A DNA stretch of 26,354 nucleotides from a virus. Made by a program: the position numbers and the translations under genes. Numbering within the stretch: position 1 is the stretch's first letter; each line of letters begins with the position of its first letter. Positions 1,856 through 24,370 of the stretch are shown one piece after another. The stretch is taken from positions 1 to 26,354 of IMG/VR virus record IMGVR_UViG_3300042458_000963, one strand, 5' to 3'. The notes beneath the pieces are model-generated. The model was not told where the DNA came from. It made no database searches and saw only the letters and a program-made list of their open reading frames with translations.

Positions 1856-3463
1856 TTAACGAAGTAACCAAGTTAAGTTTTCTACCTCACCTCTACCCAC
1901 TTCCATTTCGTATGGATTCTTACCAGACCAACCTGTAGAATACACTCCATCAAATTGTTTTATTTGAGTAGAATTCAACATACTCTTTGTTAAATCAATA
2001 CCTTCTTGTCTCAAACGAAGTGCGGTGTTACGAACCCAAAGTCCGATTGCCAACGCCATTACCAAGTCATCATTATATCCCTTCATTGCTTCTGCTCTAC
2101 CACCATGCCAAATAAATGTAAACATTTCATCTATCAATCTACCACTACGAATGAGAATATCCTTATCACTCATATATGTATCCAATGCGGAGATTATAAG
2201 AGGACGGGTTTTTGATGTTGTAGAGAATCCTGCAACCATTTGCTTTTCATCTCTGTAAAACTTATTACTCATTTGTTTCTCAACATCAATATATTTTAGG
2301 TCATTACTCATATAGAATAAATTACCATACTGCCTATCAATTATCTGTTGAATACATGCCCAACCTACGTTTGAGTTTTCTACTACTAATAGGGCGTTAT
2401 TATATTCCGTTGCCAACGATGTTAAAAAATTACCAAAATGTTTTGTTTCAATTTTACCTCTGTATTCGGCTACTTGTGTGCAATCTTCAATATCAATTAT
2501 TTGTGCAGTAGAATAATCGGCTCCATCTCCTCTTGCAACGTCAGCCACAACCATATATTGTTTGTTGTAGTTTGGATATTCCCAAATCCATAAATTATTA
2601 TCAAATCCTCTTTTTTCAATCGGGTCCATTACATAGGTATCTTTGTACCAAGTCAATAATGCAGGGTCAATTACGGTATCACCGGAACCAATGAAGTCAC
2701 AATCACATTCCTGTGCCGCTCCTTTAACTCCCAAAATACGGGTTTGCTCATCTCTCCACGCCTGATTTCTTTCAGGGTGAACTGTCCAATGTAGATTGAT
2801 ACAATTGAATCCATTTGCTCCACTCTCACCTTCTACCCACATTTTGTGAAACCAGTTACCCACACCATTAGGAGTAGATAATACAATTGCGTTACCACCA
2901 GTTGATAGAGTTGATTGTGCTGATAACCAAATTTCGTCAATATCTCTAATGAATGCAGCCTCATCCACTACCAATAGGGATAGGGCTTCAGAACGTCCTG
3001 CATCAGGTGAGGATGCGATTGCTTTGACCTGTGAACCGTTCTTTAGTTTAAGTGATAGTTTGTTATCTTCAGCTGCCGCAGTTCCTCCATCCCTCAACCA
3101 AACGGGAAGTAAATCGTGCATAACTCTAACCTTTTCTACGAGGTTTTTAGCTACCGTTACTTTAGTTGCAATAACCAACGCATTGAAATCCTGATTGAAT
3201 ATCATTTTCCAAAGAATAAATCCCGCAGAAAGGGTTGATAAACCTAACTGACGAGATTTTAGAATGATATTAAAACGATGGTCTTTAAAATCAGTTAAGC
3301 AATCCTCTTGAAAAGAATAAAGGTGAAAGGGTATTTTCCCTCTCACCGGATGTTGAATAACACAATATTTCTTCATAAAGTAAATGGGGTCTCCCGCACA
3401 TTTACGATATTCTTCAGAAATTATTTCTTTTAAAGTTTTTTTTGGTTGTCCTTGAACTCCCAT
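1856..3463 (-). CDS. Terminase large subunit (T4 gp17-like ATPase and nuclease)
   Basis: This is the DNA-packaging motor. Its N-terminal ATPase translocates DNA into the prohead and its C-terminal RNase H-fold nuclease cuts concatemers. At 535 residues it is slightly shorter than T4 gp17 (610). The Walker A region is KSRQLGLST at 69-77. The lysine at the usual GKT position is leucine and a lysine sits at the start of the loop, as in the deviant Walker A of lambda gpA. Walker B is LLVVDEAAF with D167 and E168. The nuclease acidic residues are D308 in VVADVARGDGADYS, E362 in LLVVENSNVGW and D465/D466 in GYNDDLVMA. The fold order and downstream portal gene make the call secure. The start at 3463 gives MGVQGQPKKT; there is no Shine-Dalgarno sequence. 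Confidence 0.96.
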   Translation of the reverse strand: MGVQGQPKKTLKEIISEEYRKCAGDPIYFMKKYCVIQHPVRGKIPFHLYSFQEDCLTDFKDHRFNIILKSRQLGLSTLSAGFILWKMIFNQDFNALVIATKVTVAKNLVEKVRVMHDLLPVWLRDGGTAAAEDNKLSLKLKNGSQVKAIASSPDAGRSEALSLLVVDEAAFIRDIDEIWLSAQSTLSTGGNAIVLSTPNGVGNWFHKMWVEGESGANGFNCINLHWTVHPERNQAWRDEQTRILGVKGAAQECDCDFIGSGDTVIDPALLTWYKDTYVMDPIEKRGFDNNLWIWEYPNYNKQYMVVADVARGDGADYSTAQIIDIEDCTQVAEYRGKIETKHFGNFLTSLATEYNNALLVVENSNVGWACIQQIIDRQYGNLFYMSNDLKYIDVEKQMSNKFYRDEKQMVAGFSTTSKTRPLIISALDTYMSDKDILIRSGRLIDEMFTFIWHGGRAEAMKGYNDDLVMALAIGLWVRNTALRLRQEGIDLTKSMLNSTQIKQFDGVYSTGWSGKNPYEMEVGRGEVENLTWLLR

Positions 3464-4120: not shown

Positions 4121-4789
4121 TTAATTTTTTATAAGCTCTGAATGATTTAATTCTCGTAACTTATCTTCCAATGCTAACTTTCTTTCTAATAATGCATCTA
4201 TTGCATCATACGCTCCTTCAATATCATTTTTTAAATCCGATTTTACTTTTTCAATATCAATATCCCATTGCCATTTACTAAATGAACCATCTTCGTTAAG
4301 CATTTGAATTTGTTGAGTTACACTATTAAATGCTTCTTCTAATTGTGATTTAGTATCTCTAACAAAATCTAATTTATTTAATGTTATTCTATAATCTTCA
4401 TAAAACGCCCAACTACCATCTTCCCGTAGTGATTGTTCTATTTTTCTCATACACGTTACACAATACCCAGTTCTAATAATTAATTTTTTATCTGCATTAC
4501 TATATTGTATTGTTCCACAATTTTCAGAAGAACAAGTTGTTAATTTTTTTAAATACTCTCTGGCATCATCTAATTTGGTGGTATTAATTTTGAAACCTTC
4601 TTTTTGTTCCCATTCATTACCAGCTTCATCTATCCAAATTTCTCCAACTTCTTTTTTTGTTTCATCTGCCTTTTCATAACCAAACACATTTTGATTGTCA
4701 TCGGTTCTACCAAATACCGTATCTATAATTAGTTTACGAGATTTGTGTATGTGTTTATTTTTTTCGTCAAAACTTTTTCTTTTTGTCAT
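4121..4789 (-). CDS. Hypothetical protein with four-cysteine zinc-ribbon-like motif
   Basis: The product has 222 residues and I do not recognise its family. The N-terminus is basic and polar. The centre has C86 and C91 (TTCSSENCG) and C110 and C113 (GYCVTCMRK), a CX4C...CX2C pattern spaced to hold one zinc ion. The C-terminal third (about 145-218) is strongly helical and charged, with SQLEEAFNSVTQQIQ and ALLERKLALEDKLREL, which looks like a coiled coil. A zinc ribbon plus coiled coil suggests a small structural or nucleic-acid-contacting phage protein, but nothing proves that. It lies between the giant multidomain gene and the spanin-like gene with short spacers. Confidence 0.6.
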   Translation of the reverse strand: MTKRKSFDEKNKHIHKSRKLIIDTVFGRTDDNQNVFGYEKADETKKEVGEIWIDEAGNEWEQKEGFKINTTKLDDAREYLKKLTTCSSENCGTIQYSNADKKLIIRTGYCVTCMRKIEQSLREDGSWAFYEDYRITLNKLDFVRDTKSQLEEAFNSVTQQIQMLNEDGSFSKWQWDIDIEKVKSDLKNDIEGAYDAIDALLERKLALEDKLRELNHSELIKN

Positions 4790-4834: not shown

Positions 4835-7800
4835 TTATTCGTAAAATATACCTAATATCTGATTTAGTGGTGCAAATGTACCTGTTAATTTATAAGTGTT
4901 ACCTTTATAAACGAATACAATACCTTCGTTTGGAACTATTTTATCTTTACCACCTATAGATGCTAACCTACTTAATTCCATTTTTAATTTAGCTATTTTA
5001 GATACGTCACCACTACCTCTTACTTTTTCTGCGGTAGATTCCAATCTGTTTCTCATATCGGCTACTGCTGCATTTGGATTTGCAGTTAGTACTGAACTCA
5101 TAAATGAAAGAACATCAGCACCTACTCCCAAAAATATTTCTTCAAATTGTCTAACATTTTCTTTTTGTTGCTTTACTACATTTACTTTATCATTATCTAT
5201 TGCCCATTTTTGAGCTTCTTTATCTGCGATTGAATTCAAACGAAATGATTTATCACCAAATGCCCATCTTCTTATTAACGCATCTTTTTCAAATTTCTGT
5301 AATTCAACTTTTGATTTATCTATAAAATTAGTCCACCATGCTTGATGATATTCAGAAACACCATCATTATTGGATAACCCAAATTCAGATTGTAATTTTT
5401 GTAATTTACTTAAATATTTACCCTGTTTTGCACTCAAATCTTCATTTTTAGGAAGTTTTGTAACAGGAGGGCCTTGAATTGTATATTTAGATTGAACATC
5501 TGCATTTACCTGCTTAATCATTCCTGCTAATTTAGTTGCAGCCGATTGGTCAGCAGAAACTGCACTTCCTTTTTCATCGTAGCAAGTTGTATTATGGAAT
5601 ACTAATAAAGCCTGTCCGTAGGGAATAACATTAACCGATGTTGGCCAAATTACTTCCAAATTCATAAAACACTGCCCTTCGTTAAATATTTTCTTTCGTT
5701 GTGGTTCTGAAAGAGATTGAACTGCTGCCGATAAATCTTTCATTGCAAAATTATATGCATCAGTTAATCCACCTCTACCACCAAATTTAGATGCAACATC
5801 TTCAATTCCCATTGCGTTTGCTCCTGCGTTTGCCAAATGTCCTTTGTTTCTTGCTGCAATTAATCTACCATTTTTCCAGCTGATTGCCAATGCCTGCCCA
5901 TCGGTTTTTTCTCTTGTCAATTCTAATTCACCAGTTAATGCACCAGTTATTATGTTTTTTAAATCACCAAAAGTTAAATCCATATCATCAAATGGGTGAG
6001 ACATGTGTCCGTATGCACCACCTTCAGTTAAAAGAGATTCATTTACTAATCCTGTTTTTGAAAAATCACCTCTAATAGTACCACTCTTATTTATTCCATA
6101 GACACGAACACCAGCTTTTTGAATTTCGTCTGCCACTTTTTCTACAACATCAGGAGATACTTTATAAAAACGAAGGAAATTATTACCATCATAACTATAT
6201 CCATTATTTACAATATTATGAAATCCTCTTACAGAAGTAGATGTAGTTTTCATTGCATTTACACCATGCTTTTTCAAAATAGCGTTTACTACCTTCTTTA
6301 CAGGGTTCATTTCCGCTTCGTTTACCGATTCTTTTTTTAATCTACTTTTTTCAGCTCTACCTCTATTTACTGATTCATCTTCAAATCCAGCAATCTTTCC
6401 ATTCTTATGAGATGCATCTTTACCATCACCATTACCATAAGTACCTTTATCTCTATTGTACTTATTTAATTCAGCTCTGTATTTTTTTGATTCAGTTGAT
6501 GATTGATATTTTTTATATTCAGCTTTGTAATCCCTTTTGGTTGACTCTTTTAGTTTAACTCCTGCATATTCTAATCTATATTCATAGTATTCTTTTTTAA
6601 TATCAGAAGGAACTTTTGAATTCTTTCTGAATATTTCATCTACCATTTTACGAGTATCTTTATCCGAAAGTGCCCATTTTACTTTATCTTTATCTAATGT
6701 AAAAAAAGTATTCAAAGTAAAATCTATTTTTTTCAACATTGGTAATAAAACTTCATTCTCAAAAAATGAGTTATATTCTTTCCGTTGTGAACCATCTAAA
6801 TAATTAAGAGCAAAATCGGAATCATACAAATAATGCTTTAATGATTTTGCAATCATCTCTAAAACATACTTTTTATCGTTTTTACCAATATATTTTTCTT
6901 CACCACTACCAATTACATATTTGTACTGATTACCCACCAAATCACTTAATTTGAGTTCGTTTAATTTACCAGTATCGGTTTTGAAAAACGGACCTCTTCT
7001 TACACTTCTAAAGTCTAAACTCATTTCGTTTCCAAAAATTTCTTTAGGTGCAAGTATTTTTAATCTAATAGTTCCATTTTTATTATCAACACCTATTGTT
7101 TCAAAATCAATTTCGGAATATTTTTTACCCTTAAATCCTAAATTCTTACCCGTAATAAACTTATGAACTTTTCCGCCACTAACTGCCTGTGCTTCTTTTA
7201 AAGATTTTGCAGGTTCATATCCTCTATCTTCGGTATCTTTTTTATTTAATTGATGTCCTACCTGTTTAGTGGTATCATCAAAATCAACTGTATCTAATTC
7301 AGCAGGATATCCCAAATCAGGAGTGTAATTCCCAGTTTTATGGTGATGTAGAAAATCTCTTTGAGCACCACTTTTTGCGTGTTTTGAATGAGTTGCTGCA
7401 CCTATGGATTCTCCTTTTGGTATTCTAAATGTTGCCGCTTTTTTACCATTAATTGTCGGCATTCCGTGGTCATCAGTTCCAATATCTTTAACGGTAACTT
7501 TTTTATTTTTAAACTTACCCATTAAAACTTCATCACCTTTATCAACATCCAAATTAATGTCTTCTTTAAAAAAATCAGTTTCAACATAATCAATATTTGG
7601 TAAATTTTTTATAGTGTATTTTACAGTTCTTTCTTCCGCATCATCATCTCCAAATATAGCATCTGCTTCTGGGAAATCGGTTTGAGTGTATCCTCCACCT
7701 GTGTACCAAGCTTCACCTTTATCCGAATCTAATTTTCTTTTTTTTCCTTTTTTTATGAAAGAACCATCAGGAACATCTGCCGTATTTGCAGTTCCCACAT

Positions 7801-10132
7801 TACTAACCTCATTATATATTTGTTTGTTTATTCTACCATACTCTCTCATTAGGATTCCAGCTACTGCGTGTGCTTGGTTTTCTATAGGAGAACCATCTGC
7901 CCCATCTTTTTCTGAATTTCTAACTAATCCCAACTCATCTTGCTTTCTATGAACCATTTCATGTGCAAGTGTACGAAGTATATCCGCTGTCAATCTACCC
8001 TCTGTTGCAACATATATTGATTTATCATCTGGGTTATAACCACCCAAAGATGTTTTTACTTCAGCAAATTCTCTACCACCAACTAATGTTACATTTGGAG
8101 ATTCTTTTAACTTCAATCTTTTAGTTGCAAACTCTACAAAGTTCTGAATAGATTGTTGTTTTGTTTCTGAAAGAGTTTCATTTAAATTACCTACTAATTT
8201 AGATACCGCCTGTTGTGGTTTTTGCTTTTTATATGATTCAATTGAAGCCAATAATTGTTCATCACTCATTTTATATGTTTCCATTTTTTCTGCAACGGTT
8301 TTTAACAAATTTGCAGAAAACTTTTGAGTATCAGATGATGCATCAATACCTTCCAATATACCCAATGTGGCTGTTGATAAAGCGGCACCTGTTCCTGCAG
8401 CACTTACTCCACCCAATCCCATTGCTTCCAATGTAGCGTGTTTTGCAATATCCTTGCCTAAATGGACACCAAATCCAACCGCACCATGTGTAAATGCACC
8501 AGTTGCTCCGGATAGAGCGGCTCCTCCAATTGCACCGCCAGTAGCAGCTCCTGCCATAACTGCTTTAGCAACCGCTACACCTGCTCCACCCAATGCCATA
8601 GAACCGAATATCAATCCAACATCCAACGCAGTATGTTTGATATGTTTTATTTGTTCTTTTCGTTTTTCATCGGAGTATTCCCATTCGCCAGTTTCTTTAT
8701 TTTTAGTAGAACCAATTTTTTTACGATTCATTACAGCTTTAGCCGCATCCATCGTCCCACCAATCATTTCTTTTTTATGATGTGCCCAATGTGCTAATCC
8801 TTTTCCGAATTTCTGTAAGCCAGATTTAATATTACCCAACATTCCCTTTCTTTCTTCGGATTGTGGGTTGTTTACTTTATCTATTGTTTCATTATCTTCT
8901 TTTGATAATCCTTTTCTAGCAGTAGTTAATTTTTCTGTTGTTTTCGCGTCTTTCTTTTCTTTATCAGATTTTTCGGCAGACGATTTTAACTCACCTCCAC
9001 TTAATTTTTGAGATGGTGGTGGCGGTGGTGGTGGTGGTGGTGGTTTTGGTACACCTTGTTTTGGTTTCGTTGCATCCACCTTACCTTGTGCAGTTGCCCC
9101 CTTATTTACAGGTTGCCCTGGTTGTGGTGGTGGAGGTGGTGGAGGTGGAGGTGGTTTTGGTATTCCACCACTTTGTTTTTTCTGAACTGCAGCTACTTCA
9201 GCGGGAGTTAGGGTTCTAATTTTACCATCTTCTGATTTATGACTAGCAGGTTGTCCTTCTTTACCATAGTATCCACCACCTAAATGGACTAATCCCATTT
9301 TTTCAGCTTCACTCTCTTCGTTAAAATATGTTCTGGTAAATTCTTCAAACATTTCTTCCATTGCAACTCTACCAAGTATTTCTGCAATTGGGTTATATAA
9401 CTCATTTGTTGGATGTTCGGTTTCATGCCGTGTAGGATGTGGTTCTGGTCTCATCTCATACGATGGCTTTGTATTATTACTCTCATCCGTTGAACCCGTT
9501 GGTGCCCCATTAATGTATCCTCCTGGAAGATTTAATCCAGTTCCTATACCACCTGGAAAACCATTTTCATTCAATTTACCTGTTATCATACCGAATACAT
9601 CTTTATTAAATTTTGGATATGCTTTTAAGAATCCTTTCTTTTTAGATTCATCATCTCCACTACCCAACCAATTACGAACATCTGTTCCACTAATTGGATT
9701 TGATTCAGCAGGAACGGCATACACATATCCAATTTCATTGTATCCGTATCCAGCTTTTTCTTTATATGGTTTAAAATATTTACCAGCTAATCTATCTGCA
9801 TCCTTTTCTCCAACTGCTGCTACATACGCAGTAGTTTTACCATCAAATTGAGATAATATTTCTTTTGGAGCATACGGATTCCGAACTTGAACTATCTTAT
9901 CTTTCGGTATTCCAAACATTGTAGTAATTATTGTTACCTTCTCATCAAAATTAAAAGGAGATTTAGGACCCGATGTATCATTGGAGGTTCCAATATATAC
10001 ATTTGATTTTCCAAATTTTTGAGCAAGTTTTAAATAAGAAACATAATGCCCTTTATGGAATGGTTGGAAACGACCTGAATATACTACTACGGTCTTTTTT
10101 ACTACTGGTTTATCTTTTTCGTTCAAATTCAT
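4835..10132 (-). CDS. Giant multidomain phage protein: NMNAT-like, metallopeptidase, HNH-like and ligase-like domains
   Basis: The frame is open for 1765 residues from ATG 10132. Residues 1-155 are an NMN-adenylyltransferase-type domain: GRFQPFHKGH with HKGH at 26-29, and ISGTDVR at 147-153. Two PKP10 tracts end at 336 and 373. Residues about 498-598 are Gly/Ala-rich and hydrophobic. HEMVH at 724-728 with a downstream PIENQAHAV is a gluzincin-like zinc protease signature. GDGKDASHKNG around H1242 resembles a phage HNH motif. Residues about 1380-1765 carry covalent nucleotidyltransferase motifs: KTDG (K1409-G1412), AARNKG, NLEVI (E1493), EGIVF (E1736) and YKLTG (K1748). The mix suggests a virion or injected multi-enzyme protein acting on NAD or nucleic acid (inference). 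It directly follows the glycan operon by 14 bases. I see no frameshift. Confidence 0.85.
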   Translation of the reverse strand: MNLNEKDKPVVKKTVVVYSGRFQPFHKGHYVSYLKLAQKFGKSNVYIGTSNDTSGPKSPFNFDEKVTIITTMFGIPKDKIVQVRNPYAPKEILSQFDGKTTAYVAAVGEKDADRLAGKYFKPYKEKAGYGYNEIGYVYAVPAESNPISGTDVRNWLGSGDDESKKKGFLKAYPKFNKDVFGMITGKLNENGFPGGIGTGLNLPGGYINGAPTGSTDESNNTKPSYEMRPEPHPTRHETEHPTNELYNPIAEILGRVAMEEMFEEFTRTYFNEESEAEKMGLVHLGGGYYGKEGQPASHKSEDGKIRTLTPAEVAAVQKKQSGGIPKPPPPPPPPPPQPGQPVNKGATAQGKVDATKPKQGVPKPPPPPPPPPPSQKLSGGELKSSAEKSDKEKKDAKTTEKLTTARKGLSKEDNETIDKVNNPQSEERKGMLGNIKSGLQKFGKGLAHWAHHKKEMIGGTMDAAKAVMNRKKIGSTKNKETGEWEYSDEKRKEQIKHIKHTALDVGLIFGSMALGGAGVAVAKAVMAGAATGGAIGGAALSGATGAFTHGAVGFGVHLGKDIAKHATLEAMGLGGVSAAGTGAALSTATLGILEGIDASSDTQKFSANLLKTVAEKMETYKMSDEQLLASIESYKKQKPQQAVSKLVGNLNETLSETKQQSIQNFVEFATKRLKLKESPNVTLVGGREFAEVKTSLGGYNPDDKSIYVATEGRLTADILRTLAHEMVHRKQDELGLVRNSEKDGADGSPIENQAHAVAGILMREYGRINKQIYNEVSNVGTANTADVPDGSFIKKGKKRKLDSDKGEAWYTGGGYTQTDFPEADAIFGDDDAEERTVKYTIKNLPNIDYVETDFFKEDINLDVDKGDEVLMGKFKNKKVTVKDIGTDDHGMPTINGKKAATFRIPKGESIGAATHSKHAKSGAQRDFLHHHKTGNYTPDLGYPAELDTVDFDDTTKQVGHQLNKKDTEDRGYEPAKSLKEAQAVSGGKVHKFITGKNLGFKGKKYSEIDFETIGVDNKNGTIRLKILAPKEIFGNEMSLDFRSVRRGPFFKTDTGKLNELKLSDLVGNQYKYVIGSGEEKYIGKNDKKYVLEMIAKSLKHYLYDSDFALNYLDGSQRKEYNSFFENEVLLPMLKKIDFTLNTFFTLDKDKVKWALSDKDTRKMVDEIFRKNSKVPSDIKKEYYEYRLEYAGVKLKESTKRDYKAEYKKYQSSTESKKYRAELNKYNRDKGTYGNGDGKDASHKNGKIAGFEDESVNRGRAEKSRLKKESVNEAEMNPVKKVVNAILKKHGVNAMKTTSTSVRGFHNIVNNGYSYDGNNFLRFYKVSPDVVEKVADEIQKAGVRVYGINKSGTIRGDFSKTGLVNESLLTEGGAYGHMSHPFDDMDLTFGDLKNIITGALTGELELTREKTDGQALAISWKNGRLIAARNKGHLANAGANAMGIEDVASKFGGRGGLTDAYNFAMKDLSAAVQSLSEPQRKKIFNEGQCFMNLEVIWPTSVNVIPYGQALLVFHNTTCYDEKGSAVSADQSAATKLAGMIKQVNADVQSKYTIQGPPVTKLPKNEDLSAKQGKYLSKLQKLQSEFGLSNNDGVSEYHQAWWTNFIDKSKVELQKFEKDALIRRWAFGDKSFRLNSIADKEAQKWAIDNDKVNVVKQQKENVRQFEEIFLGVGADVLSFMSSVLTANPNAAVADMRNRLESTAEKVRGSGDVSKIAKLKMELSRLASIGGKDKIVPNEGIVFVYKGNTYKLTGTFAPLNQILGIFYE
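9014..9055 (-). repeat. Poly-proline unit 1 (GVPK plus ten prolines) inside the giant gene
   Basis: Ten consecutive proline codons (residues 364-373), preceded by Gly-Val-Pro-Lys, make a tract mostly of CCA codons. It matches a second unit at 9125-9166 (Gly-Ile-Pro-Lys plus ten prolines) and the two are separated by about 23 other residues. They probably form stiff polyproline II linkers between the NMNAT-like head and the rest. As near-identical triplet repeats they are also a natural site for length change by slippage. Confidence 0.9.
9125..9166 (-). repeat. Poly-proline unit 2 (GIPK plus ten prolines) inside the giant gene
   Basis: Ten prolines at residues 327-336 follow Gly-Ile-Pro-Lys. 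Three codons are CCT and the rest CCA, so the tract is not a pure copy of unit 1 at 9014-9055. The shared head (Gly, Val or Ile, Pro, Lys) argues for an ancient internal duplication. Confidence 0.9.
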
Positions 10133-11596: not shown

Positions 11597-12694
11597 TTAC
11601 ATTTTTATTTTTTCTAAAAAACTTTTCAATTCAGTTTTAACAAATTTCCTATTTGAATATGGTGAAGCATGCTGCCAGTAATTATTAGTTTTAAAATAAT
11701 CCAAAATATCATCAATGTTTCGTTTTCCATTATCCCATAGAGTTCTATATTCTTGCCAAATTAGATTAGGAACCTCATCTCTATCTGATACTTCATCAAA
11801 GTTATAATTTTGTATACACCATTCAACTTGTCCTCCAAATTTTGTAACATTTTCTTTTTCATAAAACCAAAATTTATCTAAATCTATTAAATCGTAGAGA
11901 TATTTAACATACGGTTTATTATTATATTGTGGGTTTATATCACTTTCCCATGTATGGGGTATATATTTTTCCATTAAAACATGCCAAGCTTGGTCTTTTT
12001 TACTACCACTTGGTGAAAATAATGGAAATCTATCATCAGTTGTATACTCTATCGAAAAATTATTATGCATTGTAAAACATTTATAATCTATACCATGTGT
12101 TTTACAAAAGTATTGTAATAATAATATATTTTTAAAATATTCAATTAATCTTTCATCCACCGAAAAAACATGGTCTACATAATCATCAAAATAATCAATA
12201 GAACGAACATTAACATGAGATGAGTGATACCCACCCGCTAATATGAAATATCCATGCTCTCCTGCATATTTTTTAGGAACATCAATAAAATCATTTATGT
12301 GAGCAAAATCTTCTACAATTGGTAAATTCTTATCTCTCTCTTTTACAAAGGTTCTGTTTAACTCATAACCTTTTTCAGTTTGTTTTACATTTGATATAAA
12401 TGCAGAATTTCTAGACCATGCAGACCATTGTACTATAACTGATATATCCGAAGCAGCTATTCCCTCTTTTAAAAGTTTATCAATCCCATATATCGTAGAT
12501 TGAGTTATAACATTGTTATCGTTTGTGGGACATCCGTAGTTTAATACTTTTAAATCAGGGTTTTCTTCTTGTATAAAATGGGGCCACTTCCATTGTGAAA
12601 TATGGTCATCCATAAAGTCATCAGCAGTTCCTGTTATTCCTAATCTTCTAAATTGACGTGTAAACGAACACCCATTTGTAATTATATGTTTCAT
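11597..12694 (-). CDS. SGNH-hydrolase-like protein with GCSFT motif (paralogue 1)
   Basis: The start is ATG at 12694 (365 residues), one base after the upstream stop; an upstream start at 12739 would only overlap the neighbouring gene. MKHIITNGCSFTRQF places GCSFT at residues 8-12, matching SGNH/GDSL block I with S10 as the candidate nucleophile. Also present are LNYGCPTNDNNVI, SVIVQWSAWSRN, HGYFILAGGY and a C-terminal HASPYSNRKFVK, where a catalytic His could sit. Sequence and length match the protein at 16306-17391 (FHNYGAITNDNK, RKFV near the end). SGNH enzymes in glycan clusters usually add or remove O-acyl groups. This activity is inferred, because blocks III and V are not clear here. 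It sits between two family-A glycosyltransferase genes. Confidence 0.6.
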   Translation of the reverse strand: MKHIITNGCSFTRQFRRLGITGTADDFMDDHISQWKWPHFIQEENPDLKVLNYGCPTNDNNVITQSTIYGIDKLLKEGIAASDISVIVQWSAWSRNSAFISNVKQTEKGYELNRTFVKERDKNLPIVEDFAHINDFIDVPKKYAGEHGYFILAGGYHSSHVNVRSIDYFDDYVDHVFSVDERLIEYFKNILLLQYFCKTHGIDYKCFTMHNNFSIEYTTDDRFPLFSPSGSKKDQAWHVLMEKYIPHTWESDINPQYNNKPYVKYLYDLIDLDKFWFYEKENVTKFGGQVEWCIQNYNFDEVSDRDEVPNLIWQEYRTLWDNGKRNIDDILDYFKTNNYWQHASPYSNRKFVKTELKSFLEKIKM

Positions 12695-12695
12695 A

Positions 12696-13868
12696 TTATA
12701 ATTTATTCCAAATATTGTGTATAGGTGTTTTGTATACACCTTCTATAAAGTTTTTGTAATTTGATTTTGAAAAATGATAATAATCTTTATTAAATTCGGA
12801 TAATTCTTTCATACTCATTTGCATAACTTTTGTTGTAAAATTTTGTACCTCCATCATCCTATCATCGTTATTTTCTATATTATCGTACTCAAAATTCCAA
12901 AAATCGTAAGAATATTTAACTCCTCTTTCTTCCAACATTTTAATAGTATTTGGCTTTGATATTAAAATAAATGGATGACCTAACAAAGTTGGTTTCATTA
13001 TTTTTTCTGAAATGTTGTTCCAAGTTTTATAAGTTTTTTTAGAACCATTATTTCCAGCAGCATCGTAAAAACGAGTTTCTGCAACTATTTCAAAACAAGT
13101 ATCTAAATATGTAATTAAATTAGGATTACCTTGAATTAGTTCATATTGTCGCCTATTAAAAATATCGTGGTCAAGTGCTCTTGGCAATAATTTTAAAACT
13201 TCAAAAGAATTGAATTCTTTTTCATATTCTTCCGGAACCAAATCTTTAAAAATATCAATATCAAAATCTAATCCAGTGCAAGACCATATAAATTCATTTA
13301 AATGGTTATTTTGATATAAAAATTCTAAATATTTTATTTTATGAATACGAGTATGTCCTACATAATAAAATCCTTTAAATTTAGGCCAAAAATTAAAATG
13401 AGTTGATTTTAATTTTTTATATGCTTCGTATTGACTAGGAATGGCCTTGTCTTCTTTTATATGATGATACGCCAATTCTTCAAAATATAAATGATTTTGT
13501 CTATTTTGAATTAAATTCTTCGTTAGAAAATATATAGGTTTATCAGTTAAAGATTCTATTGTATCCAAGTCTTCTTCTGATATTTCTTGATTGTCATAGG
13601 TTGAAAAATCAATAAATACATTTTTACAATTTACTGATTTTAAAAATTGATATAAGAATTCTGTAAAACTTTCATTTACATCTACAACATCAAATGTTAT
13701 AAATAAATTAACATCAGAGGTTAAATCTGTAAAATTGATTATATCAATCTTTTCATACGAATGTAACGAATGAACTAATTCAGAAAATGGGTCAAGTGGC
13801 TTTATATCATGTATTATATTATAAGAATTATTTTTTCTTATTACACTAATAAACGTACATTTTTTCAT
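12696..13868 (-). CDS. Putative glycosyltransferase, family A (paralogue 2)
   Basis: The product has 390 residues and the same C-terminal order as the 481-residue protein at 10147-11592. It has a YVGHTRIHKIKYLEFL block around 180, FEIVAETRFYD around 275, and NISEKIMKPTLLGHPFILI around 300, then ERGVKYSYDFW. The DESYD tail is changed to FEYDN, so this is the most diverged of the three. A GT-B-type sugar transferase is inferred; the substrate is unknown. The N-terminus (about 1-150) has alternating short strands and helices with no recognised motif. The ATG is 3 bases after the 43-residue gene, and the stop is 1 base before the ATG of the SGNH-like gene, so translation is probably coupled. Confidence 0.6.
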   Translation of the reverse strand: MKKCTFISVIRKNNSYNIIHDIKPLDPFSELVHSLHSYEKIDIINFTDLTSDVNLFITFDVVDVNESFTEFLYQFLKSVNCKNVFIDFSTYDNQEISEEDLDTIESLTDKPIYFLTKNLIQNRQNHLYFEELAYHHIKEDKAIPSQYEAYKKLKSTHFNFWPKFKGFYYVGHTRIHKIKYLEFLYQNNHLNEFIWSCTGLDFDIDIFKDLVPEEYEKEFNSFEVLKLLPRALDHDIFNRRQYELIQGNPNLITYLDTCFEIVAETRFYDAAGNNGSKKTYKTWNNISEKIMKPTLLGHPFILISKPNTIKMLEERGVKYSYDFWNFEYDNIENNDDRMMEVQNFTTKVMQMSMKELSEFNKDYYHFSKSNYKNFIEGVYKTPIHNIWNKL

Positions 13869-13871
13869 ATC

Positions 13872-14003
13872 TTAAAATGATTTGTACACAAAAGGGTCTC
13901 TTTTTTTGAGTTCTTCTAATTTCTTTTTAAGACGTTTTTTCAATTTATAATTTTCATATTTTTTAACAAAATATGAAATAACGGGTAGTTCTTTAATTTT
14001 CAT
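13872..14003 (-). CDS. Small basic protein (43 residues), unknown function
   Basis: An ATG at 14003 lies inside the last codons of the glycosyltransferase at 13993-14772, overlapping it by 11 bases. The frame ends in TAA at 13872, just 3 bases before the next ATG at 13868, so it fills an otherwise empty 124-base gap exactly. The product starts MKIKELPVISYF, then has a run very rich in lysine and arginine (KLKKRLKKKLEELKKRDPF) and ends in KSF. It has about 16 basic residues, no clear membrane segment, and an amphipathic helix. It could be a small membrane-surface or RNA-contacting partner of the glycosyltransferases, or the tail of a decayed gene. The tight fit favours a real gene. Confidence 0.6.
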   Translation of the reverse strand: MKIKELPVISYFVKKYENYKLKKRLKKKLEELKKRDPFVYKSF

Positions 14004-14772
14004 TTTCTAGTGTTTTAAGTAGATTATCAAATTTTTTAGTTCCAAAATGTTTCCAAGGTACATTAAATACTGAATATGGTTTCCAATTTATGCCAGTATT
14101 TATGAAATTAAATTCTGCAGTACTTCTAGTGTTTTTATCTATCTGTTCCTCCGTTGGATTTGTAAGTAATGTTTTTGCATAATCACCTTTTATCCAAAAA
14201 AAGTTACCAGCGTAAACTTCACAATTCCACATTGGTTCATTTAAAAATATACCAACAGTATTATACTCTGTATTTTTTAATATATCTATACATTCTTGAT
14301 TTTTTTCTATTAAATAGTACTCCATCGCACGTTTCCAATAAAGTGAATTTTTTTCATAAATTAATCTATGTTTCATATATTCATCCGTTGGTTTATACGA
14401 TTCATCTTTATTTACCAATTCGTGCGATGCTCCTTTAGTATGTAAATATAAAATACAGTCATCATCTTCAAATGTGTCTTTATCTTTTATAATAAAATCC
14501 AAAGTAGACCATTCGTTTGGTAATGTGTGTTCACTTATTATAAAGTTTCTTATTATATAATCGTTTTCTATTGGTAGAATTTCTTTTGATAACCAATCAT
14601 AAATTTGACTACTACAATCAGCTTTAGATATTCTATCTTGTCTACCAGGAGTTGTTATTATTATATTTACTTTTGGTCTACATTTAAAACTATTCTGAAT
14701 ATAGTTAATTTGTTGTTTAACTATATCAAAAGTGGTTTTAAAAGAATAAATATGATAATATATATGTACCAT
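13993..14772 (-). CDS. Putative glycosyltransferase with HTKG and YAGNFFW motifs
   Basis: The product has 259 residues. Key segments are CILYLHTKG (HTKG at 111-114), YWKRAMEYYLI (W147), TVGIFLNEPMW and VYAGNFFWIKGDY (YAGNFFW at 187-193). In the family this resembles, related to rhamnan-synthesis RgpF-type enzymes and small GT-A-like transferases, the HxKG block and the GNFWW block flank the active site. I infer a nucleotide-sugar-dependent transferase acting at the inner face of the membrane; there is no signal peptide. The start at 14772 shares its A with the TAA of the E1-beta-like gene (TAATG), so the two are coupled. It is unrelated in motif to the three family-A transferases here. Confidence 0.65.
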   Translation of the reverse strand: MVHIYYHIYSFKTTFDIVKQQINYIQNSFKCRPKVNIIITTPGRQDRISKADCSSQIYDWLSKEILPIENDYIIRNFIISEHTLPNEWSTLDFIIKDKDTFEDDDCILYLHTKGASHELVNKDESYKPTDEYMKHRLIYEKNSLYWKRAMEYYLIEKNQECIDILKNTEYNTVGIFLNEPMWNCEVYAGNFFWIKGDYAKTLLTNPTEEQIDKNTRSTAEFNFINTGINWKPYSVFNVPWKHFGTKKFDNLLKTLENEN

Positions 14773-15302
14773 TATTTATTATATAATTGAGGATATTCCA
14801 CTAATATAACTATACCTCCGTTTGTATTAAAATAATTATATGCAGTTTCAACTTCTTCAGCTGTTTTCAAATCAAAGAATGTAATATTTTTACAAATAGA
14901 TTTAAATTCTTCAAAATAATTTGCTTTGTGTTGATGACCAGGATCCAATGGTTCATCCGAACCCTTACCCACTCTAATAAGTATATCTACATTTTTTCCC
15001 GTCATCAATTGATATTTATCTAAATGATTTACTAATTGATTTGTAGCGGATATTATAAAATCCCATCTTGGATAAAATGATACAACCGTTTTCCCAGTCA
15101 TTGCCATTCCTAAACTCATACCCATTTGAGTTTCTTCCATAACTGGAACTTCAATCATTTTTTCTTTTGGAACATCCGTTAATGTGGTACTCATAGGATT
15201 ACCAGGATAAACTATTTGTTGTCCTATAAAAACTACATCATCTGCTTTACCTAATTCAGTCATAGCAGATGATATTGCTTTTTTATATTCAGTTATTTCC
15301 AT
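14772..15302 (-). CDS. Thiamine-diphosphate enzyme, pyrimidine-binding half (E1-beta-like)
   Basis: The start is ATG at 15302 (176 residues), immediately after the upstream stop at 15304; a longer reading to 15356 overlaps the previous gene. The sequence matches the PYR domain of pyruvate dehydrogenase E1-beta and transketolase: EYKKAISSAMTELGKADD, VVFIGQQI, then PVMEETQMGMSLGMAMTG, where E56 is the glutamate expected to activate the TPP ring. FYPRWDFIISATNQLVNHL and RVGKGSDEPLDPGHQH also fit. The C-terminal transketolase domain of real E1-beta (about 320 residues) is absent. The PP-binding half is encoded at 22420-23055. The pair may form a small split decarboxylase or ketolase for sugar building; its substrate is unknown. 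Confidence 0.8.
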   Translation of the reverse strand: MEITEYKKAISSAMTELGKADDVVFIGQQIVYPGNPMSTTLTDVPKEKMIEVPVMEETQMGMSLGMAMTGKTVVSFYPRWDFIISATNQLVNHLDKYQLMTGKNVDILIRVGKGSDEPLDPGHQHKANYFEEFKSICKNITFFDLKTAEEVETAYNYFNTNGGIVILVEYPQLYNK

Positions 15303-15303
15303 A

Positions 15304-16296
15304 TTATGGTCTTGAATCTGGGTTATATTGATGTTTGTTAGCTTTATACCACTCAATAGTTTCTTTTAGGGCTTCTGTTAAATTTCTTTTTGGTTTCCAC
15401 CCTAAATCATTAATCTTTTTAGAAGACAATAATCTGATAGGAATCATTGGTGCTTTATTATTGACATATTCAATTGGATTTGTATTGTTATCCAATTCTT
15501 TAATCGTTGCAAGTGTTTCGTTTACTGTAAATCCCTCACCATAACATACATTAAAGATATCGTATGTATCATTGTTTTCTGCTACAAATATAAAACCATC
15601 TGCCATATCTTCAACGTGTAGTAAATCTCTTACTTCAGTACCATCACCCCAAACTGGAATAGGATTCAATCCATCTGCTACCTTACGGATGTTTGCAGGA
15701 GTAACGTGGCACTTTTCAAAATCAAACTTATCATTAGGTCCAAATGCGTTTGAAGGTCTAACAATCAAACATTGCATTGGTTCATGAATCTGATTTGAAA
15801 AGAAATCACATAACATTTCACCATATCTTTTCATACCACCAACTGCTTTATAAACAGGTAACATTGGTGTTGCATGAACATTAATATCTTCAGTACAAAA
15901 TTCAGTACCCATATCTGGATAAGTTGTATTTGATGATATAAATAAGAATTTACGAACTTTGTTTTTCCAACTTTGTTCCATTAAATTCACATTCATCTCT
16001 ACATTTGGAGTAACGTGCAATAGTGGATTGAATTTAGTATCTAATGCATTTGAAGTATTTGCTGCACAATGAAATACCACATCCACATCTTTACTAATCA
16101 ATTCACAAAACTCTGCATTTTGCAAATCTCCTTTAATGTGTTCTACTTCTGATGTTCCTTCAAAATCATTTCTCAAATCTCTGCTAAATGATGTTGACCG
16201 AAGGTTTCTATAACCCTTTGCATGTAATAACCTTAATAAATGTGAACCTATAAATCCACTTGCTCCTGTAACTAAAATTTTGTCTGTTTTTTTCAT
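15304..16296 (-). CDS. NAD(P)-dependent epimerase/dehydratase (extended SDR), atypical catalytic Tyr
   Basis: The product has 330 residues, full length for an extended SDR. The Rossmann motif GASGFIG lies at 11-17, CAAN at 77-80, LFISSNTTYP at 118-127 and RPSNAFGPND after the active site, and the overall look is that of GDP-fucose-synthase-like or UDP-sugar epimerases. The catalytic YxxxK is not normal. The lysine in GGMKRYGE is K156, but four residues before it is V152; the nearest Tyr is Y149, seven before. It may use another acid/base or bind without full catalysis. Its base composition is richer in G+C than the glycosyltransferase genes (24 and 26 of 60 in samples at 15601 and 15661). It lies 1 base upstream of the E1-beta-like start. 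Confidence 0.85.
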   Translation of the reverse strand: MKKTDKILVTGASGFIGSHLLRLLHAKGYRNLRSTSFSRDLRNDFEGTSEVEHIKGDLQNAEFCELISKDVDVVFHCAANTSNALDTKFNPLLHVTPNVEMNVNLMEQSWKNKVRKFLFISSNTTYPDMGTEFCTEDINVHATPMLPVYKAVGGMKRYGEMLCDFFSNQIHEPMQCLIVRPSNAFGPNDKFDFEKCHVTPANIRKVADGLNPIPVWGDGTEVRDLLHVEDMADGFIFVAENNDTYDIFNVCYGEGFTVNETLATIKELDNNTNPIEYVNNKAPMIPIRLLSSKKINDLGWKPKRNLTEALKETIEWYKANKHQYNPDSRP

Positions 16297-16305
16297 AACT
16301 TATTT

Positions 16306-17391
16306 TTATTTAAATATATCCCATTTCAAAACTACATCATTTACGAATTTTCTAGCTAAAATGGATGATGTATGCCCATACCAGCTTCTGTTTAAGTATT
16401 TTCGTTGGTCCGCTTCATCCAATCCATTTAATTCCCTCCATAATACTTTGGGTAAATTATAATTTCCATCGGATAAATCTTCATTAAAATTTCTAATTGA
16501 CCATTCAATTATACCTCCCTTTTTATGTTTATTTTCTTCTTCAAAGAACCAAAAATATTTATCAAAATCCAATCTATCAGCATATATTTTAACGTATGGA
16601 TTTTCATCTGCCAATGATGTATCATTCCAAGTGTTACATATAATTTTTTCTTTTATAATACAATCGTATGTATCTGAATTTATACGCTTCCGTTCTTCAT
16701 TGTAAGATGGTGGTGTTTTACTTTCATCTAAATAACTTTTTGAAAAATTATTATTCATTTGAAATGATTTTATTTTAGTTACACCTACTGATTCTAAATA
16801 CGAAAATAATCCAATTATAGAATCAAACCAGTCGATATATCGTTCTTCTTTTGATAATACTTTACTCGCATAAGTTAATGCAAACTCATCCATTTTATCA
16901 GGATTAAAAGTTTCATTATAATATCCACCTGTTAAATAAAAATATCCATGTTGGTATGCATTTTTTTTAGAATCCCATTGAATAAAATCATTAGTATGTG
17001 GAGGTGAGTCGTTTTTTTCTATGAAATTTTTTAAACAATTATTATTTTTATCATAAATTTTAGGAGAAATAAACCAAGATGTACGGGTTAAAGATGTCCA
17101 TTGTGGTATTACAATAATATTTTCAGGCTTTACTCCTTTATTAAAAATTAAATCGTTTACTTTATAAAATATAGACCTGCAAATAGTTTTGTTATCATTT
17201 GTAATTGCACCATAATTATGAAATTCATAATCATTTTTAGGTAAAATTCTCCACAACCAATGAAACCATGTATAATGGTCTTTATCATCCTCTTTCCATC
17301 TATCTTCCGATTTATTATACGGGTCGATATTTGGTCTAAAATTGGAGGTAAATGAACACCCACTACCTACTATATGAATTTTATTTTCCAT
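16306..17391 (-). CDS. SGNH-hydrolase-like protein with GCSFT motif (paralogue 2)
   Basis: The product has 361 residues, homologous by eye to the protein at 11597-12694. MENKIHIVGSGCSFTSNFRP puts GCSFT at 11-15, with S13 the candidate nucleophile. It shares YTWFHWLWRILP (compare a W-WPHF block), NYGAITNDNKTI, VIPQWTSLTRTSW, QHGYFYLTGGYY, KIKSFQMNNNFSK, YFWFFEEENKHKKGGIIEWSIRNF and a final GHTSSILARKFV. Activity is probably an esterase or O-acyl transferase on sugar, inferred only from the fold family and surroundings. It sits between two SDR genes, with a 35-base spacer to the upstream gene, one of the longer gaps in the run, where I see no recognisable signal. Confidence 0.6.
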   Translation of the reverse strand: MENKIHIVGSGCSFTSNFRPNIDPYNKSEDRWKEDDKDHYTWFHWLWRILPKNDYEFHNYGAITNDNKTICRSIFYKVNDLIFNKGVKPENIIVIPQWTSLTRTSWFISPKIYDKNNNCLKNFIEKNDSPPHTNDFIQWDSKKNAYQHGYFYLTGGYYNETFNPDKMDEFALTYASKVLSKEERYIDWFDSIIGLFSYLESVGVTKIKSFQMNNNFSKSYLDESKTPPSYNEERKRINSDTYDCIIKEKIICNTWNDTSLADENPYVKIYADRLDFDKYFWFFEEENKHKKGGIIEWSIRNFNEDLSDGNYNLPKVLWRELNGLDEADQRKYLNRSWYGHTSSILARKFVNDVVLKWDIFK

Positions 17392-17426
17392 AATGAAATA
17401 TACGAATAATTTTTAAAAAAAACAAA

Positions 17427-18425
17427 TTACAATCTACTTTTGTATTCTAAAATTGATTTTTTTAATCCCTCTTTCAATGTAGTTTGTGGTAAGATTCCGT
17501 ATTGTTTTTGTTTTTTAGAACCTAAACATCTAATAGGGTCTCCGTTTGTTTTTGTAGAATCCCAAACTATGTTTTTAGTTTTACCTGTAATTTCAGTATA
17601 ACATTCGACAATGGTTTCAATTGTATCTTTAATCGATACTGCTTCTGCACATCCAAAGTTGATAATATCTCTAACTTCTTTTTTAACCACATCAATCGAT
17701 GCCTGTGCTACATCATCCCCAAATACAAAATCTCTTTTGGATGAACCATCACCCCAACAAACCATATCATCTCCCTCTACATTGAATAACTTCCAAATGT
17801 TAGAAGAGATTACAGTTGCATCTTGTGCAAAGTTATCGTTTGTTCCATAGATGTTAGAAGGTCTAATTACTGTCCAATTATTCCAACCATACTGAACTCT
17901 TAATGAATCCAATGTAAGTTCTCCCATTCTCTTTGTCCAACCCGGATGCCAATCTAAACGAGATGGAGTTGATGCCCAAGTTTCTTCCTGGTTCCAAGTA
18001 TCTTCTTCATTCATTACATCTGCTGGTTTATAAACCCCAACCGATGAAAGGTATACAAACCAATCAACCTTTGCATCAAATGATGCTTTAATCATATTGG
18101 TATTAAACATCAACATTGGGAATAGATAATCGGCAGGACAAGTTGATGACCTTGCTGGTGAACCCTTTACTCCCGCAATATGTAATACAATATTAATATT
18201 ATCTAACTTAAATAAATTCTCACAATGTGAAAGATACGTTAGGTCAGTTTTAACCAATTCTAATTTATCACCATATTGTCCTTTTAAAAAATTTAGATTT
18301 TCACTAAATTTTAAATCAACTGCATATACTTTTGCAGCACCTTCTTCTAAACATTTTCTAACTGTTGGTAACCCTACTAACCCGTTAGCTCCAGTTACAA
18401 TAACTTTTTTTCCTGTAAATTTCAT
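17427..18425 (-). CDS. NAD(P)-dependent SDR, GDP-fucose-synthase-like, catalytic Tyr replaced
   Basis: The product has 332 residues. The Rossmann motif GANGLVG is at 12-18, then IAGVKGSP, FVYLSSVGVY, and an RPSNIYGTNDNF segment that matches the RP(T/S)N(L/I)YGP.DNF motif of GDP-L-fucose synthase. It keeps WTKRMGEL with K165, but the Tyr four residues earlier (normally YxxxK) is P161, preceded by H160 in DWHPGWTK. So the protein keeps the cofactor fold and lysine but not the usual catalytic base. It could epimerise or reduce using another residue, or be a partner of a neighbouring SDR. Its start overlaps the stop of the glycosyltransferase at 18425-19774 by one base (TAATG). Base composition is less AT-rich than the flanking transferase genes. 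Confidence 0.85.
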   Translation of the reverse strand: MKFTGKKVIVTGANGLVGLPTVRKCLEEGAAKVYAVDLKFSENLNFLKGQYGDKLELVKTDLTYLSHCENLFKLDNINIVLHIAGVKGSPARSSTCPADYLFPMLMFNTNMIKASFDAKVDWFVYLSSVGVYKPADVMNEEDTWNQEETWASTPSRLDWHPGWTKRMGELTLDSLRVQYGWNNWTVIRPSNIYGTNDNFAQDATVISSNIWKLFNVEGDDMVCWGDGSSKRDFVFGDDVAQASIDVVKKEVRDIINFGCAEAVSIKDTIETIVECYTEITGKTKNIVWDSTKTNGDPIRCLGSKKQKQYGILPQTTLKEGLKKSILEYKSRL

Positions 18426-19774
18426 TATATGTGTTTTTTTAAATTTTCTATAAACATTGGTTTTTGTGCAAATTTTAATGCGAAGTTTCTATTATATTCC
18501 AAAATTGGCGTTAATATTGATATATACCAATTATGTATTTCTTCCAACGGTATTTCTGATAATCTTTTTATTTCTTTACAAATCAACTCAAATCGTTTTG
18601 CATCATCATATTCATTATCATAACTTTCATCTATAAACCCATCAAAGGTTTTGAAACCCAACTCTTTTATATATTTTAAATATTCAGGTGCACCTACTAA
18701 AATAAATGGTTGTAAAACTACCATTGGATTTATTATTTTTTCTGTTGGGAAAATATCATTTTTAAAATTAGTTTCGGTTACTATGTGTATATATGAATCT
18801 GTATATATTTCTTTTTTGTATGCACGAAGCACTTCAAATGACTCTTTTTCAGATTCACTCAAACACATTGTATCCATTTCAATTGGTAATTTATTTATAA
18901 AAGAAGAAATTGAAGTTCTTAATTTATTTCTTAAATCATACTGCAATCCATCAATTAATTGAATTCTATCATCATGTTTTAAAAGAAAAGATGCGTATGT
19001 TTTATCCCATAAATTTTCTGCTTCAAAAAAACATCCTAATGTAAATCTGTGTGGTTTGTTAGAATTTCTATTTGGACAAACAAAATATTTATTTCTTTTA
19101 ACACTAACATCGGATAGAGTTAACCATTCGGTTTTATATCCTAATGTATGATTTGGTTGAGCTTTTAAATCATCCAATTTTTTACAACTTGATATTAACA
19201 AATTATTTTCGAAATAAAAAGTAAACCCCATATTTTTAATATCAGGATGTAATTCAAATAAATTAGAGGTTCCTCCAAAAAATATAAAATTTGATTCATT
19301 TAACCCTATATATTTTATTTCTTCGGATAATTTTTTTAAAAAATTAAAATCAGAAAAGGGTTCATGTGATATATTGATAACAAAAACTAATTTATTTATT
19401 TTCGCCAATTCTATTGCATATTTCGATACAACATTTTTAAAATTAACCCGATATTTAAGACCATCTGAATCGTAGACCGTATCATCTGCCAAAAAGTTAT
19501 GATTACCATATATTTCTATTGGATAAAACAAAATATCTCCATTATAATTTTTAGTATCTAACTTATCTAATATTACATATTTTCCACCTAATTTATTTAA
19601 TATATTTCCTCTTAATTCGGAATGGCTTGATGCAAAATTAAATTTGCTTCTAACAATAGAAAAGAAATCTTGAGAATCTATAGTATCGGCATAATCATAC
19701 AATTTAGTGTTCCATGCATTTGGATACACCATTTTTCTTTTAAAATCATACCTATCGTATGCCAATGTTATCAT
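18425..19774 (-). CDS. Putative glycosyltransferase, family A (paralogue 3)
   Basis: The product has 449 residues and follows the same C-terminal plan as the 481-residue protein. It has CPNRNSNKPHRFTLGCFF around 230, IHIVTETNFKND around 330, FPTEKIINPMVVLQPFILVG around 345, and GFKTFDGFIDESYDNEYDD. The HR block differs in detail (PHRF), but the IVTET, TEKI and DESYD segments align without gaps to paralogue 1. A sugar transferase is inferred, with unknown donor. The N-terminal 200 residues contain short strands (LVFVINIS, FIFFGG) typical of a Rossmann-like domain. The stop overlaps the next start by one base, so it is coupled to the SDR at 17427. A 15-base gap separates it from the COG5610-like gene. 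Confidence 0.65.
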   Translation of the reverse strand: MITLAYDRYDFKRKMVYPNAWNTKLYDYADTIDSQDFFSIVRSKFNFASSHSELRGNILNKLGGKYVILDKLDTKNYNGDILFYPIEIYGNHNFLADDTVYDSDGLKYRVNFKNVVSKYAIELAKINKLVFVINISHEPFSDFNFLKKLSEEIKYIGLNESNFIFFGGTSNLFELHPDIKNMGFTFYFENNLLISSCKKLDDLKAQPNHTLGYKTEWLTLSDVSVKRNKYFVCPNRNSNKPHRFTLGCFFEAENLWDKTYASFLLKHDDRIQLIDGLQYDLRNKLRTSISSFINKLPIEMDTMCLSESEKESFEVLRAYKKEIYTDSYIHIVTETNFKNDIFPTEKIINPMVVLQPFILVGAPEYLKYIKELGFKTFDGFIDESYDNEYDDAKRFELICKEIKRLSEIPLEEIHNWYISILTPILEYNRNFALKFAQKPMFIENLKKHI

Positions 19775-19789
19775 ATATTATTGTAATAT

Positions 19790-20788: not shown

Positions 20789-21219
20789 TATAAGTAAACT
20801 TTAAATGAAGGTATGCCAAGTGAAATCCACAAATCAATTATTTCTTGTTTATCATCAAAAGCACAAAATACTTCATCATCAATAAAATCAACATACATAT
20901 TTCTTTTTAATTCCACATCCTTAATGTAATGATTTTCTTCACTTCGCATGTGTAATCTATCGTAGAAAATAGTATAATTCTCTAACCAATCTTTAGTAGA
21001 TTCTTCTATTGAGTCTGGTCTACTAGTTAGTAATACGATTTCATATTTATCAAACAAACGATTTACAATATCAATCATTGGATAGTTTGGTTCATCTGAC
21101 ATTACATTTTTATAATCATATAAAATATCCCAATCTACACTATCATCAAGTTTAGTTGCAAGTTGATATCTCTTTTTATTTATTGCAAGAGTATTATCTA
21201 TATCAACTATTACAATCAT
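20788..21219 (-). CDS. HAD phosphatase, PNKP 3'-phosphatase-like
   Basis: The product has 143 residues, about the size of the phosphatase domain of T4 polynucleotide kinase. HAD motif I is VDIDNTLA with D6 and D8, motif II is LLTSRPD (T65-S66-R67) followed by a DWLENY helix, RLHMRSE matches the L-x-MR block, K105 fits motif III, and FDDKQEIIDLW (121-131) is motif IV. This is the order seen in the PNKP phosphatase family. Substrate could be a nucleic-acid 3'-phosphate (RNA repair) or a sugar phosphate; the glycan neighbourhood leans to the second. The kinase half is absent. The start overlaps the radical SAM stop (ATGA) and the stop overlaps the COG5610-like start. Confidence 0.8.
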   Translation of the reverse strand: MIVIVDIDNTLAINKKRYQLATKLDDSVDWDILYDYKNVMSDEPNYPMIDIVNRLFDKYEIVLLTSRPDSIEESTKDWLENYTIFYDRLHMRSEENHYIKDVELKRNMYVDFIDDEVFCAFDDKQEIIDLWISLGIPSFKVYL

Positions 21220-22415: not shown

Positions 22416-22419
22416 ATTA

Positions 22420-23831: not shown

Positions 23832-23832
23832 A

Positions 23833-24369: not shown

Positions 24370-24370
24370 A

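Follow-up and report, generated by a model that had tools for sequence, protein, structure and literature searches.

The window, by which we mean the whole 26,354-nucleotide stretch of viral DNA analysed here, contains between positions 4835 and 10132 one uninterrupted open reading frame (ORF) of 1,765 amino acids (aa) on the minus strand. The coordinates and length given in an initial annotation, made from the letters alone, were correct; a plus-strand reading of the same interval is ruled out by 103 stop codons. Each motif quoted in that annotation is present once in the ORF, far beyond chance: GRFQPFHKGH at aa 20–29, ISGTDVR at 147–153, HEMVH at 724–728, EKTDG at 1408–1412, EGIVF at 1736–1740 and YKLTG at 1747–1751. 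The ORF and its parts are as follows.

4835–10132, minus strand: the 1,765-aa ORF, read as an NMNAT-like head, a mosaic middle and an RNA-ligase-like tail
9563–10132, minus strand: aa 1–190, NMNAT-like (archaeal NadM-type) nucleotidyltransferase domain, from Pfam, PHROG and PDB profile matches
10046–10075, minus strand: aa 20–29, GRFQPFHKGH motif, in which His29 is invariant and His26 is not
9674–9694, minus strand: aa 147–153, ISGTDVR motif, defined by motif conservation
8978–9154, minus strand: aa 327–385, two polyproline linkers, seen in the sequence
8333–8620, minus strand: aa 505–600, Gly/Ala-rich hydrophobic stretch, a module common to 40 ORFs
7763–8215, minus strand: aa 640–790, zincin-like module with HEMVH and a downstream conserved ENxAH
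7397–7570, minus strand: aa 855–912, small mobile module, at different positions in relatives
6938–7210, minus strand: aa 975–1065, module also present in other ORFs of loci L028–L030
6341–6535, minus strand: aa 1200–1264, HNH-like segment matching phrog_6437 (E = 1.3e-11), with a very similar segment in locus L261
4838–6046, minus strand: aa 1363–1765, RNA-ligase-like covalent nucleotidyltransferase domain, from motifs, model and profile alignments
5897–5911, minus strand: motif I, EKTDG, with the predicted nucleotidylated Lys1409
4958–5548, minus strand: aa 1529–1725, long helical insertion between the motif III strands and motif IV, from the model

An NMNAT-like N-terminal domain

The first 190 residues match the Pfam family CTP_transf_like (PF01467, E = 5.7e-5, above the curated cut-off) and phrog_395, ‘cytidyltransferase’ (E = 4.2e-13). 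When a profile of 18 relatives was compared with the PDB, the matches included 1f9a (1.9e-8) and 2qjt (6e-8), and the top nine were all archaeal-type NMNAT or NadM entries. The window protein carries both NMNAT hallmarks, (H/T)xGH and SxTxxR. Across 111 distinct N-terminal domains, His29, Ser148 and Arg153 are invariant (111/111) and Thr150 is kept in 110, whereas position 26 varies (60 His, 49 Gly, one Thr and one gap). The HxGH motif reads GxHH in many marine members, so that NMNAT activity may not be general. Judged by these matches and motifs, the domain is NMNAT-like, with the activity itself likely but not assured in every member; for true NMNAT activity, we see the odds as evenly balanced.

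A C-terminal domain resembling RNA ligases

Searches of aa 1363–1765 against Pfam, PHROG and PDB sequences returned nothing significant, and no ligase family at standard thresholds. The RNA_ligase Pfam families (PF09414 and kin) gave no match above the curated cut-off in the window protein, and one relative (L132) has a single weak RNA_ligase match (E = 0.057). The domain contains a KxDG motif I followed by motifs III, IV and V, conserved and in the order expected of the superfamily. All 198 distinct C-terminal domains compared share E-K-x-D-G, Arg1428, Lys1430, Glu1493, Glu1736-Gly and Lys1748, and relatives of at least 35% identity keep E-K-x-D-G, A-R-N-K, Glu1493, E1736-G-x-V-F and K1748-x-T-G. 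In profile–profile alignments to the phage Rnl1 and Rnl2 families the motif register holds, on motif III for Rnl1 and on motif I for Rnl2. The scores of 36.5 (Rnl1) and 34.7 (Rnl2) were well above those of the reversed profile and of 60 column shuffles per family, whose maxima were 24.3 and 22.4 (0/60 each). The domain stops right after motif V, where known ligases normally have a further C-terminal domain.

A first structural model, built from near-identical sequences, was too poor (pLDDT 74, TM <0.2), and we used instead an AlphaFold model of aa 1363–1765 from an alignment of 54 diverse sequences (pLDDT 88, pTM 0.84). Structure prediction, which the initial annotation had proposed as a check, gave a ligase-type nucleotidyltransferase fold. 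The first 28 Foldseek matches in the PDB are all polynucleotide ligases, nearly all of them named RNA ligases; they are led by the fungal tRNA ligase 8rbj (probability 0.97), then T4 Rnl1, and also include T4 Rnl2. Capping enzymes and DNA ligases come further down, the latter only from rank 34 with the exception of an Aquifex entry named ‘putative DNA ligase’. The best E-value, that of 8rbj, is only 3.6e-3 and the TM-scores of the top matches are below 0.3, since the match is confined to the core: the helical insertion, about 200 residues long, has no counterpart.

The ligase-like character first read from KTDG, EGIVF and YKLTG is supported, with RNA ligases nearest in both fold and profile, as is the joining of an NMNAT-type domain (by Pfam, PHROG and PDB profiles) and a ligase-superfamily domain (by motifs and model) in a single polypeptide. 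On its motifs and model, we regard the C-terminal domain as a new family within the covalent nucleotidyltransferase superfamily, on the RNA-ligase side. Ligase-type chemistry is probable from this evidence, and RNA is slightly favoured over DNA as the substrate. As to the residues first singled out for mutation, the ligase motifs, Lys1409 among them, are conserved in homologues (198/198) and Glu725 is kept where the zincin module exists; His26, a histidine in only 60/111, is not.

A constant core around a mosaic middle

The C-terminal domain is encoded in at least 583 IMG/VR stretches. Among the loci compared, some of which overlap, 159 of 260 ORFs with this domain also carry the N-terminal one. 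Almost all the others are cut at a contig edge, and the eight uncut pieces are explained: the NMNAT lies in a neighbouring gene (L033, L125), a split intein interrupts the gene (L053, L075), the frame is broken (L091 and two pieces in L194), or the start is a very divergent NMNAT-like one, as judged by eye (L263). In L194:1-3661 and L091:5097-7209 the fused gene is spread over two or three frames, through decay or sequencing error. In LR756500 the C-terminal domain stands alone, and the gene that comes after it has an NMNAT-like C terminus. The gap between the two domains ranges from 20 aa in phage Mel-JY01 to 1344 aa. The two ends are the constant core of the protein and the middle is a mosaic. 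No relatives turned up in a scan with the L032 protein, and a literature search found no experimental work on any family member and nothing for Mel-JY01 or DUF6267.

The protease motif HEMVH that had been noticed between the two ends (7949–7963, minus strand) is indeed a zincin-like motif in a conserved module. This module, with the downstream conserved Glu of ENxAH, occurs mainly in near relatives of the window protein; in Pfam the region has only a weak DUF6647 match, and a similar segment is found in cyanophages B23 and S-SRM01. The HNH-like segment of the initial annotation could also be located, but its match, phrog_6437, is a function-unknown family; this piece is among the rarest parts of the protein and is shared by few members. 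Marine relatives have other modules instead, often N-terminal to the NMNAT domain: a P-loop kinase of AAA_33/zeta type (9 of 25), a poly(A)/CCA polymerase head with its RNA-binding part (2.8e-31), Nudix, and PF05618 Zn_protease. The L186 member carries a phrog_36119 domain whose sequence resembles a Pol-beta nucleotidyltransferase.

A split intein at motif I

In L053 (592-7086) and the same gene in L075, probably from one virus, a split intein lies between the motif I Lys and Thr, with junctions TREK / CIAGDT and DILVHN / TDGQ. A free-standing homing-endonuclease-like ORF sits between the intein halves. A group I intron was considered as the cause of the interruption in L053 and rejected, there being no Rfam match. 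Inteins favour the active sites of genes that matter, and insertion right after the motif I Lys lends indirect support to a catalytic role for that residue. The TerL gene of the same contig holds a second split intein (L053:8433-11238).

Genomic context

Three further genes of the window bear on the setting of the ORF.

1856–3463, minus strand: terminase large subunit (phrog_2, 6e-45), the conserved downstream neighbour
4121–4789, minus strand: 222-aa gene directly downstream of the ORF
20788–21219, minus strand: 143-aa HAD phosphatase of the PNKP 3'-phosphatase family (PF25109, 4.7e-19, above cut-off)

A terminase gene lies downstream on the same strand in 161 of the 162 loci with at least 4.5 kb of downstream sequence, and a relative of the 222-aa gene does so in 196 loci, usually as the next gene after the ORF. 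The ORF sits in the late packaging region, and this late-gene setting beside the terminase fits a head-associated or injected protein. The closest matches of the window terminase come from Flavobacterium phage immuto (54%) and Microcystis phage Mel-JY01 (52%), which hints at a host among the Bacteroidota or the cyanobacteria. No tRNA genes were found in the 26-kb virus record.

Adjoining the late module is a long nucleotide-sugar cluster (11597–25336) with three epimerases, a dTDP-sugar isomerase and a radical SAM gene; a thiamine-pyrophosphate enzyme lies within it in two separate halves (22420–23055 and 14772–15356; E1_dh, 5e-16, and Transket_pyr, 1e-7). The HAD phosphatase, whose gene is inside this cluster, is by its family a possible RNA-repair partner.

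NadV was found in only 2 of 14 records; some of the 14 are incomplete, and the window itself is a fragment. An ordinary RNA ligase is also encoded in 6 of 13 records, and the DNA ligase families PF01068 and PF01653 in one of 13 each, several of these records being fragments.

A proposed role in RNA repair and NAD metabolism

What the analysis finds directly is two domains with invariant motifs, a mosaic middle and linkage to the terminase. The explanation that we favour, with a probability of about 0.5, is a late protein of the polyvalent type described for phages (PMC5512222, PMC9503650), whose constant core of two enzymes would combine RNA repair with NAD metabolism. Lys1409 of the C-terminal domain would take AMP, and the domain would seal RNA breaks, with tRNA cleaved by host anticodon nucleases as the likeliest substrate. 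The N-terminal domain would make NAD or a related dinucleotide, a product that might restore NAD during infection, a counter-defence known from phages (PMC12774641), or feed NAD-dependent end processing. The middle would hold accessory modules exchanged among phages; in the window protein these would be the HNH-like segment and a zincin, which may cleave the polypeptide. The protein would be synthesised together with the proteins of the head and of packaging and might be packed along with them; carriage in the virion seems to us somewhat less likely than not, and the injected, self-cleaving protein of the T4 Alt kind that was first proposed is a possible model.

The companions found in fusions (kinase, poly(A)/CCA head, Nudix and Pol-beta-like parts) and the PNKP-type phosphatase of the window support this explanation, although fusions with P-loop or Nudix parts would fit pure NAD metabolism just as well, as in NadR and NadM, and the ordinary RNA ligase encoded by several of these phages counts against it. 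The NMNAT/ligase-like pairing recurs in more than one order, a sign that the two activities may belong together.

The best-surviving alternative, which we consider unlikely, is a polyvalent anti-defence protein with independent ends, in which the NMNAT would refill NAD drained by host NADases, the ligase repair RNA and the zincin carry out processing, the fusion being a shared delivery vehicle only. Polyvalent phage proteins are a published class that brings disparate enzyme domains together, with zincin the commonest (Iyer et al. 2017, PMC5512222), and head-packaged phage enzymes are encoded near packaging genes (PMC9503650). The mosaic middle with its widely varying gap, and the NMNAT-like protein of the cultured phage immuto with its two HEXXH motifs, point the same way. 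Against this, the NMNAT/ligase-like pair stays constant while the rest changes, and is found reversed in cyanophages, which argues for a functional link; the rarity of NadV also differs from published NadM phages, where NadV is always present.

That same difference makes plain NAD salvage through NadV and NadM less likely, and the idea that one polypeptide could make and spend NAD as a single cycle is not supported, given the 12 of 14 records without NadV.

A DNA ligase that would seal nicks in the phage genome as the adjacent terminase packages it, or beforehand, or in replication, is improbable in our estimate. The ligase superfamily includes DNA ligases, the terminase is a near-constant neighbour, and most records have no recognisable DNA ligase of their own, which keeps this role in play; such absence is weak evidence because several records are fragments. 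The structure and profile comparisons that place RNA ligases first, the RNA-type companion modules (CCA/poly(A) head) and the cyanophage version, located away from the terminase and near replication genes, all speak against it.

The two activities could also be coupled chemically, with NAD, or an NAD-type RNA end, used by the fused domain for NAD-driven RNA repair or end modification, which we rate a poor bet; to our knowledge, nothing of the kind is known from any organism. Poorer still is a closed form of this coupling, in which the ligase would take AMP from NAD supplied by the NMNAT (or act on NAD-type ends) and the released NMN would become NAD again. The pairing is constant in three arrangements (window type, S-PM2 type and adjacent genes), and such a cycle needs no NadV, matching its rarity. 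The helical Ia domain, which confers NAD specificity on bacterial DNA ligases, was not detected in the Pfam scans, and we know of no RNA ligase that depends on NAD. ADP-ribosyltransferase activity as in T4 Alt is rejected, as no ART domain was found.

With these results, a domain that is common among phages of aquatic habitats but falls in no Pfam or PHROG family gains a likely enzyme activity, as does, on structural grounds, DUF6267 of cyanophages. Because NMNAT-type and ligase-type domains have been joined in more than one way, it becomes possible to test directly, with small recombinant proteins, whether phages link NAD metabolism to RNA repair.

Comparison with known systems

T4 Alt is an ADP-ribosyltransferase, and the window protein resembles it only in the proposed mode of delivery. 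Like the polyvalent proteins, the window protein is multi-domain and mosaic, with a zincin-like motif and a late-gene context, and it joins several unrelated predicted catalytic domains in one late phage protein, as that class does; ArdC, ART and MuF were not detected in it, and the consulted part of PMC5512222 names no NMNAT-type or ligase domain. The 907-aa protein of immuto (L367:2109-4832), annotated NadR, has an NMNAT-like domain, HEXXH twice and a weak match to Pol-beta; no ligase domain was found in it. Phage NadM and NadR salvage enzymes also have an NMNAT-type domain, and some relatives of the window protein share their Nudix or P-loop kinase parts; the window protein differs in its fusion to a ligase-like domain and in usually lacking a NadV partner.

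T4 RNA ligases 1 and 2 and the ligase domain of fungal Trl1 share with the C-terminal domain a nucleotidyltransferase core with motifs I and III in register. The window domain differs from them in its large helical insertion before motif IV, a single Lys in motif V, the missing C-terminal domain and the lack of significant single-sequence similarity. An unannotated 446-aa protein of PA5oct-like Pseudomonas jumbo phages (L113:2908-4248) has ligase motifs EKIDG and VEGYVIR, and the protein of PA5oct itself is a structural match (E = 6.6e-4).

The nearest counterpart is the ‘cytidylyltransferase like protein’ of Mel-JY01 (WWT39297.1, 639 aa), which has both domains as in the window protein (37% identity) and lies upstream of TerL, but its domains are only about 20 aa apart, it lacks middle modules, and its ligase half is not annotated. 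In BFVD, the C-terminal model matches a 591-aa cytidyltransferase-like protein of cyanophage S-PM2 (E = 6.6e-5). This protein, S-PM2d138 (L366:39486-41261), consists of DUF6267 (1.6e-111) followed by an NMNAT-like CTP_transf_like domain, and its N-terminal half contains KWDG, EGFVAIV and VKIVD; the 91-aa ‘possible cytitidyltransferase’ S-PM2d141 has no such motifs. As a query, the 591-aa protein finds 547 phage records, of which 201 cover most of it in one place, many as two adjacent genes, ‘hypothetical | cytidyltransferase’ (phrog_395). From the model match, DUF6267 resembles a nucleotidyltransferase of the ligase type; in cyanophages an NMNAT-like domain is either fused to it or lies next to it. 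These pairs thus resemble the window protein in joining ligase-like and NMNAT-like parts, and differ in their reverse order, in a ligase half beyond the reach of sequence search and in lying near replication genes rather than the terminase.
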